23,538 bases of DNA from Bacillota bacterium (GTDB lineage Bacteria > Bacillota > Bacilli > Alicyclobacillales > SLC66), in contig JAJZCJ010000009.1 of assembly GCA_021846145.1 (NCBI GenBank), positions 1-23,538 of the forward strand, written 5' to 3'. Positions 15,479-19,357 of the stretch are shown here, piece after piece (the stretch's first letter is position 1; every line of letters begins with the position of its first letter). The translations under genes and the position numbers were made by a program. The notes beneath the pieces are model-generated. The model was not told the DNA's origin and did no database searches. It saw nothing but the letters and a program-made list of their open reading frames with translations.

Positions 15479-16689
15479 AATAAATCCCCCTGAAATGCGA
15501 ATGTCTTAGGCGATGCAGTAATTTGATCTGTGTATTTTAAACCGGATCCAGTGTTCATTACTAATACAGTTTCATCGGGGCGAATCCAACCTTGCTCGCG
15601 TAATTTGCGCACACCGGTAATTCCTGCCGCTCCTTCGGGACTGGTGTGCAGGCCATCTTTGCGAACTACGTTTTGTCGTTCTGCATGAATTTGTTCATCA
15701 TCGACACTGATGGCAATGCCGTCGGTATTCCTCAGCACATCTAAGATGAGAAAATCGCCAAATGCCTTAGGAACGCGCATGCCAAATGCGATCGTATGTG
15801 GGTTTTGCCATTCAACGGAAGCGCGATCACCATTTTCAAAGGCACGAACAAGCGGGGCGCAACCTGATGCCTGCACAATGACAAAACGAGGCATGCGGCG
15901 CTCGATCCAACCCAGTTCTTGAAGCTCGCTTAGTGCTTTGTAGATACCAATCACACCGGCTCCGCCACCTGTTGGGTAGACGATTACGTCCGGGATGGAC
16001 CAAGCAAATTGTTCTGCGATTTCAAATCCCATTGTCTTTTTACCTTCTAAGCGATAAGGCTCTTTGAGGGTTGACACGTCGTACCAAGTTTTGGACTTTA
16101 CTAATTGAGGAAGAGTTTTACCTGCATCAGCAATCGTGCCATCAATCACATACAAATCGGCACCTGCAATTAGGCACTCTTTTTGAGGAGTAATTGGTGC
16201 TGATTTTGGCATTACTACCGTAATATCCATGCCTGCTCTGGCGGCATACAGCGACCAAGCCGCACCTGCATTGCCATTGGTTGGGATGCCGATGGCGCGT
16301 ACGCCCATCTCTTTCGCTTTGGAAATACCGATTGACGCACCTCGTGCTTTGAACGTTCCTGAAGGTAGAACTCCTTCATCTTTGGCATAGAGGTTCTCCA
16401 TGTTCATGCTTGCCGCTGTTTCAGACAGGCCAACGATGGGGGTCATCGCTTCGTTTAGGGACACGATGTTTTCAGGATGGTGAACGGGGAGCAATTCGTG
16501 ATATCGCCAAAAATTTGCTGGTCTATCGGTTAGAACCGATCGATCCATAGATTTTTTTAATGAAGGAAGGTCGTAACGAACAAATAATGGGAAACCGCAT
16601 GTATCGCAGACTTGAATGATTGTGTCTGGTTGGTATTCTTTTCCACAGTAGGAGCATTGTAAGTGTGACATAAAGCTATATGGACTCAA
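15475..16689 (-). CDS. threonine synthase-like PLP enzyme with N-terminal zinc ribbon
   Basis: Fold-type II PLP enzyme, 404 residues. A four-cysteine ribbon (Cys12, 15, 28, 31: CSYC, CDTC) precedes the catalytic domain. The PLP lysine is Lys114 in PSGTFKARGA, the substrate loop is PTNGNAGAA (136-144), and the phosphate-binding loop is PTGGGAGVIG. This matches threonine synthases, but the family also holds cysteate synthase and other beta-replacement enzymes. hom and thrB are absent here. TTG 16689 lies seven bases after GGAGG. A TATAAT at 16747-16752 on this strand is a possible -10 box. It is first in an operon with an aldehyde dehydrogenase and an aminotransferase, an odd setting for threonine synthesis. 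I am sure of the superfamily, not of the reaction. Confidence 0.82.
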   Translation of the reverse strand: MSPYSFMSHLQCSYCGKEYQPDTIIQVCDTCGFPLFVRYDLPSLKKSMDRSVLTDRPANFWRYHELLPVHHPENIVSLNEAMTPIVGLSETAASMNMENLYAKDEGVLPSGTFKARGASIGISKAKEMGVRAIGIPTNGNAGAAWSLYAARAGMDITVVMPKSAPITPQKECLIAGADLYVIDGTIADAGKTLPQLVKSKTWYDVSTLKEPYRLEGKKTMGFEIAEQFAWSIPDVIVYPTGGGAGVIGIYKALSELQELGWIERRMPRFVIVQASGCAPLVRAFENGDRASVEWQNPHTIAFGMRVPKAFGDFLILDVLRNTDGIAISVDDEQIHAERQNVVRKDGLHTSPEGAAGITGVRKLREQGWIRPDETVLVMNTGSGLKYTDQITASPKTFAFQGDLL

Positions 16690-16830
16690 GGGGACACCTC
16701 CGGATAAAAATCACGTTCTTCAATCTTCAATAGGATAGCTGCATCAATTATAGTTGGGAAGATTTAAAATTAGCTTTACATGAAATGATCCTGTTATACG
16801 TGTATTGTGATGTTGTGGGAGGTGTGCAAG

Positions 16831-17442
16831 TTGCGGGATCGTCTTGATCAGGCCATTCAATTGGCGGCTGGTGCGCATGAAGGTCAATATCGTAAGGGGA
16901 CAAAGATTCCTTACATTACCCATCCGTTTGCCGTGGCCATGCTGTTACAGACGTATGGGTATGGCCAGGATCTTGTGATTGCTGGCTTACTGCATGATGT
17001 TTTGGAGGATACAGCAGTAACTTATGATGAAATTGCTGCACAATTTGGGTACCAGGTGGCGGAGTTAGTGCTTGCTGCGTCGGAACCAGATAAATCCTTG
17101 TTATGGAAGGAACGCAAAGATCACACATTAGAAAGCGTGAGGAGCGCCTCGTTAGATGTAAAGATTTTGGTGTGTGCGGACAAGTTACACAATCTTCGCA
17201 GTATTCTTGCTGATCTCACACAGTATGGGTCTGTCGTATGGGAAAGATTTCACTCAGGAGTAAAATATTCAGGACGTGAAGCACAAGTTTGGTATTATAC
17301 GGGCATTCTTAAAAGTCTGTATGCGGAGCTTTCGAGGGATCAGGACATTCCGATTTTTGCCGCGTATCGTCAAGAGGTTTTAGCGCTTCGTCGTTGGGAT
17401 GCGATGGAGCGATTGGGGGAGCAAAATCATGATGGGGGATGA
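16831..17442 (+). CDS. HD-domain phosphohydrolase, stand-alone alarmone hydrolase-like (SpoT/MESH1 type)
   Basis: Protein of 203 residues, formed essentially by the HD domain of RelA/SpoT proteins without synthetase, TGS or ACT domains. Metal-site residues are His31 (YITHP), His55-Asp56 (LLHDVLED) and Asp117 (CADKLHNL). RelA/SpoT proteins use this domain to hydrolyse (p)ppGpp, so a small alarmone hydrolase is likely; hydrolysis of another nucleotide is possible. TTG 16831 is eight bases after GGGAGG (16817-16822), while earlier in-frame starts overlap the site. The last 14 bases overlap the glutaredoxin gene, so the two are probably translated together. Confidence 0.8.
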   Translation: MRDRLDQAIQLAAGAHEGQYRKGTKIPYITHPFAVAMLLQTYGYGQDLVIAGLLHDVLEDTAVTYDEIAAQFGYQVAELVLAASEPDKSLLWKERKDHTLESVRSASLDVKILVCADKLHNLRSILADLTQYGSVVWERFHSGVKYSGREAQVWYYTGILKSLYAELSRDQDIPIFAAYRQEVLALRRWDAMERLGEQNHDGG

Positions 17443-17707
17443 AAATTTGCAATCAAGAGAGATCGTCGTTTACACAACCACTTCCTGAGGTAAATGTCTG
17501 TTAGCGAAAGAGTTTCTTTCGCATCGTGGTATTCCCTTTCGAGAAGTACACGTGTTTGACAATGGTGAGGCGGTCAATGAATTAGTACAACTCACGGGTT
17601 CTTTGTCGGCCCCAGTAGTGCTTGTGGGAAAGAGGTATATTCGTGGGTACGACCCAGTCGGAATGATCGAGTTATTGATGCAATCGGGTTGGGTAAAAGA
17701 AGAATAG
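17429..17707 (+). CDS. putative selenocysteine glutaredoxin (in-frame TGA at the active site)
   Basis: A 92-codon frame from ATG 17429 to TAG 17705-17707, interrupted only by TGA at codon 20 (17486-17488). Reading TGA as selenocysteine (U) gives EIVVYTTTS-U-GKC-LLAKEFL, a glutaredoxin active site with U in place of the first Cys of CxxC. The rest is intact: the cis-Pro region GSLSAPVVLVG (about 57-67) and RGYDP (72-76), as in NrdH/YruB-like glutaredoxins. GGGGGAG (17415-17421) lies seven bases before the ATG, inside the HD gene. A hairpin fitting a bacterial SECIS follows the TGA. TGA is an ordinary stop for other genes here (for example 1044-1046, 17440-17442), so a general code change is ruled out. 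The alternatives are a nonsense mutation or a sequencing error. The role would be thiol-disulfide or peroxide reduction. Confidence 0.75.
17486..17522 (+). promoter_or_regulatory. candidate bacterial SECIS element
   Basis: Fifteen bases after the in-frame TGA, GCGAAAG (17504-17510) and CTTTCGC (17516-17522) form a perfect 7-bp stem capped by the loop AGTTT. The apical loop begins 22 bases after TGA and has G as its second base followed by T. Known bacterial SECIS elements lie within the coding sequence about 16-37 bases from UGA to loop and need a G in the first two loop positions. The element fits these rules; SelB binding is inferred. Confidence 0.65.
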
Positions 17708-17768: not shown

Positions 17769-17800
17769 ACCACTATCACGAATAGATGGGGTGTATCGAA

Positions 17801-18526
17801 TTGTTTAATGTCGGCGATACGTTAGGCGATGTGGTCACAAAATTTCCTTATGCAGCAACTATTTTTAGCCAGTCGCAGATTGATTTTTGCTGCGGAGGTG
17901 CCCGTTCCATTCAACAGGCGTTAGATGAGAAAAATTTGGACGCTCGTGGATTCATGCTTGCATTAAACGCAGCGTGGACAGAACAACAGAGTCAAGATTC
18001 TGTATTTATCAATTGGCAAGAAGCTCCTCTGACGAAACTTGTTGATCACATTCTCCAGGCTCATCACGCTTATCTGCAGCAAAATATGCCTAAAATTGGG
18101 GAATTATCCACGAAAATTCTGCGTGTTCACGGAGAACATCACGGTCAGGTGTTGTCCATATTGCACCGGCAATTCCACTTATTCAAGATGGCCATGGAGG
18201 AACATTTAATTAAGGAGGAAACGCAGGTGTTTCCTCGCATCAAGGCGTTTGAAGAGACGCAGACCGTCGCTGATCTTCGTGCGGTGAATCAGGCGATTGC
18301 CACGTTGGAGCAAGAGCATGAGGAAGCAGGTCAACTGTTGCGGACAATGCGTGAAATCACAGGTGACTACGAACTTCCCACTGACGCTTGCAAAACGTAT
18401 GTACTTACTTTTCAACTATTGAAGGAAATGGAAGACAACACGTTTGTGCATGTGCATCTTGAAAATAACATTTTATTCCCGCGACTGCGCCAATTGGAAG
18501 CTGAATTTCAAGCAGATCGGCGATAG
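17801..18526 (+). CDS. ric: iron-sulfur cluster repair di-iron protein (RIC/YtfE/ScdA family)
   Basis: Cytoplasmic di-iron protein, about 241 residues, that helps rebuild iron-sulfur clusters damaged by nitric oxide or peroxide. The N-terminal domain has IDFCCGG (Cys30, Cys31), the ScdA_N hallmark. A hemerythrin-like domain follows with metal-ligand pairs in LVDHILQAHH, VHGEHH, EEHLIKEE, LEQEHEEA and VHLENNILFPRL. TTG 17801 is chosen because GGGGTG lies seven bases upstream and the product then begins like Staphylococcus ScdA; ATG 17786 has no ribosome site. It has its own Fnr-like operator and promoter, and lies just after the glutaredoxin gene. Confidence 0.92.
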   Translation: MFNVGDTLGDVVTKFPYAATIFSQSQIDFCCGGARSIQQALDEKNLDARGFMLALNAAWTEQQSQDSVFINWQEAPLTKLVDHILQAHHAYLQQNMPKIGELSTKILRVHGEHHGQVLSILHRQFHLFKMAMEEHLIKEETQVFPRIKAFEETQTVADLRAVNQAIATLEQEHEEAGQLLRTMREITGDYELPTDACKTYVLTFQLLKEMEDNTFVHVHLENNILFPRLRQLEAEFQADRR

Positions 18527-18651: not shown

Positions 18652-18915
18652 CTAGGCATTGATCAACTCTTGATACTCGGCCCACAGTACCATTGCGTCC
18701 GGGAAGGCAGCCTCCATAACGCTCCGCAGGCGTGGAGTGGCTTTTCCCACTTTGATTAAATTCCGTTCCATTTCCTCCAACAAATCGGACAACCGAATGC
18801 GGCGATGGGAACCGACCATATGGTACGGAATCTCGCCTGCTTCGAGGACTTTGACGACATGCGTGCGAGAAACCTGCAATATATCGGCAGCCTGTTGAAC
18901 CGACACGATGATTTT
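18652..18915 (-). pseudogene. antitoxin HTH domain fused to a PIN-toxin remnant
   Basis: The reading frame has an excisionase-type helix-turn-helix, SVQQAADILQVSRTHVVKVL then EAGEIPYHMVGSHRRIRL, as in antitoxins paired with PIN-domain toxins. It runs directly into LEEMERNLIKVGKATPRLRS and VMEAAFPDAMV with YQELI, which resemble the middle of a PIN toxin. The rest of the antitoxin, the start of the toxin and the toxin C-terminus are missing. An in-frame deletion probably joined two neighbouring genes. The open frame continues upstream to 19032, but that part is antisense to a PadR fragment and shows no family likeness. The 125 bases between the RIC gene and this remnant hold no recognisable gene. 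Confidence 0.55.
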
Positions 18916-19357
18916 GCGGCTCTTGTCCGAAGCTGAGCACTCGGGTGGTGAATATGAGTTGAAGGAAGCTACGATGCACTCCAGCATCCAGCGGCTTGAG
19001 GCAGACGGTGATATCGAGTGGTATTGGGGCAATGATTCTCAGGGTGGACGGCGTAAGTATTTTCGCATTACCGAAAAAGGCAAGGCCACTTATGCCAGCA
19101 ATAAAAGCAATTGGGAGTACGCAAAGCGCGTACTCGACACCTTTGAGAACTGTATCTTTAATGGCGTTGATTTCAAATATTCTGATTTGCGAGGGATTTG
19201 TTTTGACGGGCAGACCTTCATCGGTGTCAAGTTTGACAAGTCTGCACTGAACGACGTTTCGTTTAGGGGAGCGACACTCAAGAACGTGTCATTCACTCTA
19301 CCTTTTTCCGTGACAAACAACCATTACACACGAGGCAGCGACTTCGAAATGCCTTGA
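18908..19357 (+). pseudogene. truncated PadR-type regulator joined to pentapeptide-repeat segment
   Basis: The first part matches the second half of a PadR winged helix: GGEYELKEATMHSSIQRLE (recognition helix side), YWGNDSQGGRRKYFRITEKG (wing), then NWEYAKRV. Helix 1 and the YGYEI region typical of the PadR N-terminus are missing. From about residue 77 the frame continues as pentapeptide-like repeats (FNGVDFKYSDLRGICFDG, then VKFDKSALNDVSFRGATLKN). It ends abruptly after VSFTLPFSVTN, where related proteins go on. Both ends appear cut, so I call it a decayed gene, although the open frame of 149 codons could still be translated. Confidence 0.6.

Follow-up and report, generated by a model that had tools for sequence, protein, structure and literature searches.

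A probable selenocysteine-containing glutaredoxin, with a SECIS-like hairpin, encoded in a Bacillota genome related to Alicyclobacillus tolerans

The stretch of DNA analysed here (the window, 23,538 nucleotides) carries a small glutaredoxin frame that is interrupted by one TGA at its active site and lies between a gene for an HD-domain protein and a gene for an Fe-S cluster repair protein. The features on which the argument depends are as follows.

16807-17442, plus strand: HD-domain protein (SpoT/RelA hydrolase-like), upstream; PF13328, E 1e-21
17429-17707, plus strand: probable selenocysteine (Sec) glutaredoxin gene, 92 codons plus TAG, whose read-through product covers the whole of the PF00462 profile; start codon likely at 17429 or 17432, with a further in-frame ATG at 17399
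17486-17488, plus strand: in-frame TGA, the candidate Sec codon, at residue 20 and the first position of UxxC
17495-17497, plus strand: TGT codon of the putative resolving Cys23 of UxxC, which is Cys in all 15 rows of the protein alignment
17504-17522, plus strand: bacterial SECIS-like hairpin, 8-bp stem, loop GUU, 23 nt after the TGA
17552-17707, plus strand: truncated ORF of 51 aa with a GTG start, reportable by a standard gene caller
17786-18526, plus strand: RIC/ScdA/YtfE-type di-iron Fe-S cluster repair protein, downstream; TIGR03652, 241 bits (cut-off 204.7)

The glutaredoxin frame overlaps the end of the HD gene by 14 nt and is preceded by a Shine-Dalgarno-like run, GGGAG, at 17417-17421. 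Its only in-frame TGA is codon 20, and 72 open codons follow in translation. Read through the TGA, the predicted protein matches the Pfam Glutaredoxin profile PF00462 from position 1 to 60 of 60 (E 3.1e-13, 50.2 bits, cut-off 22.9). The active-site motif is TTTS-U-GKC, which by codons places U20-G-K-C23, with Sec first and Cys fourth. The first-pass annotation had described a 92-codon glutaredoxin frame with one TGA at codon 20, this same motif, a conserved Pro (A61-P62) and an RGYDP region, and translation together with the Pfam match bears out each of these. It had also foreseen that conventional gene callers would miss or truncate the gene; mechanical ORF rules do split the frame, into a 29-aa piece (ATG 17399 to the TGA) and the 51-aa GTG remnant, and database entries from relatives start after the TGA.

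An AlphaFold2 model built from a five-row alignment (mean pLDDT 79.4) has strands at 12-16, 38-41, 63-66 and 69-72 and helices at 21-32, 46-56 and 76-85. This is the beta-alpha-beta-alpha-beta-beta-alpha order of a glutaredoxin fold, with the active site at the start of helix 1. The leading Foldseek matches were 3ic4, 4tr0 (cGrx2), 3zit/3zij (BC3987, thioredoxin-like) and 7c10, entitled 'Dithiol cGrx1'; the model superposes on 7c10_A with an rmsd of 1.2 A over 74 columns at 32% identity, and Sec residue 20 aligns with chain residue 13. Clostridium oremlandii cGrx1 (U13/C16) resembles the window protein in its glutaredoxin fold, in having Sec first in UxxC with Cys three residues on, and in a shared KEFLS downstream of the active site. 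The two differ in that only about a third of residues are identical and that the window protein has UGKC where the cGrx1 chain has CPHC. Experiments described in PMC4479559 used U13C/C16S mutants of the Clostridium Grx1, and that text offers a functional precedent, in that Grx is reported there to reduce the selenoprotein MsrA of the same organism.

Sec-glutaredoxins with UxxC appear among the known selenoproteins tabulated or mentioned in two sources (PMC13188914 Table 1; PMC9312934), the former giving WP_010943784.1 as an exemplar, and a list in PMC1794560 includes glutaredoxins of Geobacter, Moorella and Alkaliphilus. Since such proteins are already known, the window gene represents a further clade of known Sec-glutaredoxins, unlike the others in belonging to the order of Alicyclobacillus tolerans. 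The exemplar WP_010943784.1 is presumably from Geobacter sulfurreducens. A literature search for selenocysteine or selenoproteins in Alicyclobacillus or Sulfoacidibacillus, judged by title and the start of the abstract, returned nothing relevant. Among NCBIfam profiles the best match was the YruB family (TIGR02196; 62.6 bits over positions 2-68 of 74), which falls below the cut-off of 88.55 and is not a selenocysteine-defined model. The UXX-star families, also glutaredoxin-like with an active-site Sec, scored 39.4 against a cut-off of 66 bits (NF041212), 35.2 against 100 (NF041211) and 36.0 against 97 (NF047338). A review table gives their motifs as UxxT for family 1 and GxGU for family 2 (PMC13188914), whereas the window protein keeps UxxC. 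NrdH redoxins (TIGR02194), which share the small glutaredoxin-like fold, reached 39.1 bits, below the cut-off of 85.75.

The strongest local evidence for Sec is the hairpin at 17504-17522, GCGAAAGA-GTT-TCTTTCGC, which was absent from the first-pass annotation. The bSECIS model set out in PMC13188914 calls for a loop of 3-9 nt, a stem of 4-16 bp, a spacing of 16-37 nt, a G within the first two loop positions and an MFE of -7.5 or lower. Here the loop is 3 nt with G first and then U, the stem 8 bp, the spacing 23 nt, and the MFE -8.6 for the 19 nt or -10.1 kcal/mol with flanks (17500-17526). Folding of 17500-17526 is exceptional for its composition (z -4.24, matched by 0 of 200 shuffles); the wider 81 nt show no unusual stability (z -1.04, equalled or bettered by 26 of 200 shuffles), so the folding evidence concerns the small hairpin only. 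On both strands the window holds 930 TGA triplets, of which 28 are flanked by no fewer than 15 open codons on the 5' side and 60 on the 3' side. When each is represented by its longest SECIS-type stem, the TGA of the glutaredoxin is the single one of the 28 with at least eight stem pairs and an MFE of -7.5 or lower. Under the looser published minimum of four pairs one other passes, at 15686 on the plus strand, antisense inside a PALP-enzyme gene. Chance origin of the open frame around the TGA is excluded because the TGA is conserved in relatives, as set out below. Within the window an Rfam scan gave no family at gathering score, and a tRNA search found none.

Glutaredoxin matches (E <= 1e-15) were present in 14 of 59 genomes sampled from the order of Alicyclobacillus tolerans. 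Twelve have TGA at the identical codon and two have a Cys codon in the Sec column, TGC in G040 and TGT in G044. The TGA-form genomes include one isolate, A. tolerans BL-1, and three MAGs. A single-sequence scan of genome contigs for relatives of the glutaredoxin found none; an alignment-based contig scan recovered four loci, each with its TGA at the corresponding codon, one of which (L003 of L001-L004) is that of A. tolerans BL-1. In a wider class sample of 398 genomes, drawn from a larger group and searched at 1e-20, 14 genomes matched, a search that can miss members because the genomes were sampled and at most 14 candidates were scored in each. Seven of these were already in the order set (five TGA, two Cys), and among the seven others TGA occurs only in G127, from outside the order. 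The first-pass annotation had left it to an alignment of homologues whether Cys or Sec fills this column, and had regarded further disruptions of the frame in close relatives as evidence against a selenoprotein. In the homologues read across residue 20 the column is TGA or Cys and nothing else, and each of the 12 order orthologues has, in the frame that matched, the TGA as its sole stop. The in-frame TGA is thus conserved or exchanged with Cys, as in a selenoprotein.

The two forms are not scattered at random over the family. On a tree of 25 rows and 76 columns (14 Sec and 11 Cys forms, with P0005 and P0007 omitted because they duplicate G044 and G040) the Sec and Cys labels cluster, with at least two changes needed and none of 500 shuffles as low. 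We claim no direction for the change, since 11 of the 22 inner forks of this tree are open. The locus in G127 (L115, minus strand, TGA at 1528) encodes a distant Sec-glutaredoxin with the motif AFUGQC, which groups with the Cys forms of G113 and G079 (100/99), the placement of that group being weak. A second match, weaker and uninterrupted by a stop, is present in each of the order genomes G042 and G043 (71.5 and 69.1 bits).

Conservation of the hairpin follows that of the TGA. From the 13 TGA sequences (12 from the order plus the window) RNAalifold predicts exactly the eight hairpin pairs and nothing else. The hairpin is kept in all 13: eleven have all eight pairs standard, G001 is without the top pair and G059 has one mismatch. 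Paired cells make up 98.1% of 104, a figure that falls to 39-73% when partners are slid by one to three columns. One C-G pair is changed to U-A on both sides in three of the 13 (G024, G057 and G058), which replaces Ala by Val on one arm and swaps one Ser codon for another on the opposite arm. The covariation score was reached by 4 of 500 shuffles; the covariation is nevertheless thin, because it involves one pair only and shuffles reach the number of both-sided pairs (1) in 363 of 500 cases and that of further pair types (2) in 500 of 500. Among same-residue pairs, identical codons account for 358 of 420 in the six hairpin codons and for 1235 of 3167 elsewhere. The 19-nt hairpin of G127 is letter-identical to that of the window, although G127 lies outside the order and its protein is distant. 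The conserved 8-bp stem is absent from the Cys forms G040, G044, G073, G079, G113 and G316. Other hairpins occur in G040 (-8.2), in G113 (-9.9, partly overlapping the SECIS position) and in G316 (-5.6), and the folds of G044 (-3.0), G079 (-4.2) and G073 (-2.6) are weak.

The peptide [AV]KE[FY]LS follows the active site in 14 of 14 Sec forms and in 0 of 11 Cys forms of the tree set. One tentative explanation, to which we give slightly less than an even chance, is that the SECIS hairpin, rather than the enzyme, dictates this peptide. If so, the segment would act as an RNA/protein module with a dual code, kept frozen while lineages diverged deeply or carried between them together with its gene, and released from constraint once Cys replaces Sec. 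Sec forms that have the conserved stem and Cys forms that lack it together constitute a small natural test of SECIS constraint on protein sequence.

The machinery for Sec, which the first-pass annotation had expected the organism to carry, is found in the relatives. A selA match over cut-off occurs in 29 of the 59 order genomes and in all 12 with the TGA form (Fisher p 4.6e-5, kinship ignored); of the Cys-form genomes G044 has it and G040 does not, and E. coli alone has it among 14 control genomes. The tRNA-Sec family is over cut-off in 4 of 4, 14 of 41 and 12 of 15 genomes of three sets, which together cover 12 of 12 TGA genomes, and ARAGORN likewise calls a tRNA-SeC with anticodon TCA in all 12. 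Less weight falls on tRNA-Sec than on selA, because the tRNA family is over cut-off in five of the 14 control genomes too, and E. coli is the only one of those five with selA. In G001-G004, the four genomes searched for the remaining two genes, selB is over cut-off in three, being apparently split over two contigs in G001, and selD in all four.

By its kin, then, the window organism would have this machinery as well. Among the 59 order genomes, those closest to it by formate-tetrahydrofolate ligase are G049 and G050, both 79% identical to the window. G050 has selA and tRNA-Sec and no such glutaredoxin at 1e-15; G049, at 1.6 Mb probably partial, has none of selA, tRNA-Sec or a window-type glutaredoxin at that threshold. 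The glutaredoxin is not a constant part of Sec use, because 16 of the 29 selA genomes have no match to it at 1e-15. All seven selD matches over cut-off in G001-G004 (L029-L035) contain one in-frame TGA, and two selD loci are present in each of G002, G003 and G004; SelD is therefore itself a probable selenoprotein, duplicated in these genomes. Four genomes show a mismatch between the two markers, G028 and G033 having tRNA-Sec over cut-off with no selA at 1e-50, and G035 and G055 having selA with no tRNA-Sec match at 1e-8. Such cases may stem from incomplete assemblies, from decay of Sec use or from false tRNA matches.

We read 17429-17707 as the gene of a dithiol-type (UxxC) glutaredoxin selenoprotein, a thiol/selenol-disulfide oxidoreductase whose UGA would be decoded as Sec through a SelB-bound hairpin, and assign this reading a probability of about 0.95. 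The comparative evidence is strong, and judged on it this is very probably a selenoprotein gene, with Sec predicted to be inserted at residue 20. SelB carrying Sec-tRNA-Sec would bind the hairpin at 17504-17522, and the ribosome would then read the UGA at 17486 as selenocysteine. In the protein, Sec20, most likely the nucleophile, would attack a disulfide or sulfenic-acid substrate, Cys23 would resolve the mixed selenenyl-sulfide, and the reductant would presumably be a thioredoxin-reductase or low-molecular-weight thiol system; this is the redox chemistry we infer for a protein with Sec20 and Cys23. Bacilli commonly use bacillithiol rather than glutathione. The finding adds an order-level Sec-glutaredoxin clade around Alicyclobacillus, with A. 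tolerans BL-1 as a named isolate that carries the gene.

Among the alternatives, the one that survives best accepts that the Sec machinery decodes the UGA and holds that the residue is often Cys, sulfur being inserted for selenium when selenium is scarce. Cys-for-Sec misincorporation is known in other systems, and natural orthologues carry Cys at residue 20, but such misincorporation would be a condition-dependent side reaction of the same gene, and we consider it improbable as the principal account.

A selenoprotein gene is also to be preferred to a pseudogene or sequencing error, in which the TGA would be a nonsense mutation or a miscalled base in an ordinary Cys glutaredoxin. The TGA is a single base away from both Cys codons, TGC and TGT, and two orthologues in the order have the Cys form. 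The same TGA, however, recurs in 12 order genomes, the isolate and MAGs among them, the frames are open on both sides, and pN/pS is below 1. Over 78 pairs of the 13 TGA sequences, its median is 0.24 for the eight codons before the TGA and 0.35, with a highest value of 0.63, after it; we used pN/pS and not dN/dS because synonymous differences from the window are near saturation. Protein conservation is thus seen both before and after the TGA, and the ratios indicate that both sides are under purifying selection. A defective gene or misread base is accordingly a very improbable source of this TGA.

That TGA is an ordinary sense codon in this organism, under which code the frame would likewise be open (the sole point in favour), is scarcely credible, given that under table 11 a TGA terminates six of the 20 genes examined in the window, including the upstream HD gene (17440-17442) and both U32 peptidases, and that the TGA orthologues sit in genomes with SelA and a TCA tRNA-Sec.

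Decoding of the TGA as Sec bears also on what public databases hold. In a first protein search all four homologues, from four candidates, begin past the TGA position. A later profile search gave 133 proteins at E <= 1e-8, 120 of them among the matches listed. Among the best 21 of the 133 (E 1.1e-18 or lower), 12 begin beyond the TGA position and are without the active site (11 of 63-83 aa, plus P0021), seven are full-length with Cys (P0005-P0011, of which P0005 is the G044 protein and P0007 that of G040), and P0020 is a fusion with other domains; P0022, also among these rows, was left out of the classification by Sec, Cys or start. When the DNA was read, 7 of the 12 entries equalled the genomic tail after the TGA, the start residue aside (P0004 from G003, P0012 from G024, P0015 from G004, P0016 from G059, P0017 from G058, P0019 from G057 and P0021 from G042), and the remaining five are probably truncated at the TGA as well. 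Sources include A. tolerans (P0004), A. mengziensis (P0012), Sulfoacidibacillus thermotolerans (P0016) and Acidibacillus sp. (P0019), and the 51-aa remnant of the window has the same start point and length as P0001. Annotation that treated the TGA as a stop has therefore left public entries from A. tolerans, A. mengziensis and S. thermotolerans devoid of their catalytic site. The more distant database proteins P0059 and P0087 start with MKEFLS or MAKEFLS, as expected of a sequence cut off after a TGA, and may be further unrecognised Sec-glutaredoxins.

It might be argued from such entries, and from the downstream starts themselves (GTG at 17552 in the window; in relatives an ATG, GTG or TTG a short way past the TGA), that the TGA is a regulatory stop which ends a short N-terminal peptide and is followed by a second product devoid of active site, but we regard this as next to impossible, as that product would be without the catalytic motif and strand 1, purifying selection acts on the eight codons preceding the TGA, the hairpin fits the SECIS rules, and the Cys forms are one uninterrupted protein.

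The surroundings of the Sec-glutaredoxin gene vary between genomes. Comparison of the nearest ORFs in 15 loci, the window included, 10 of them with about 1.5 kb or less of flank per side, found no shared partner gene. The upstream HD gene had no match in 21 relative loci searched. The RIC gene is also downstream of the G004 orthologue, at 47% identity, and was not seen in the other relative loci searched. Ten neighbours were scanned with Pfam, one of which has no family; the others differ, comprising LytR-CpsA-Psr, PIG-L, aminotransferase V, SpoIID, DUF1028, peptidase M29, coat F, short-chain dehydrogenase and methyltransferase. A link of the glutaredoxin to Fe-S repair or nitric-oxide stress was considered and is not claimed, because RIC lies beside only the window and G004 genes and the other neighbours differ. 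Farther downstream in the window, at 18652-19357, a minus-strand HTH_17 ORF overlaps a plus-strand PadR-plus-pentapeptide ORF by 125 bases (18908-19032), and both have Pfam support.
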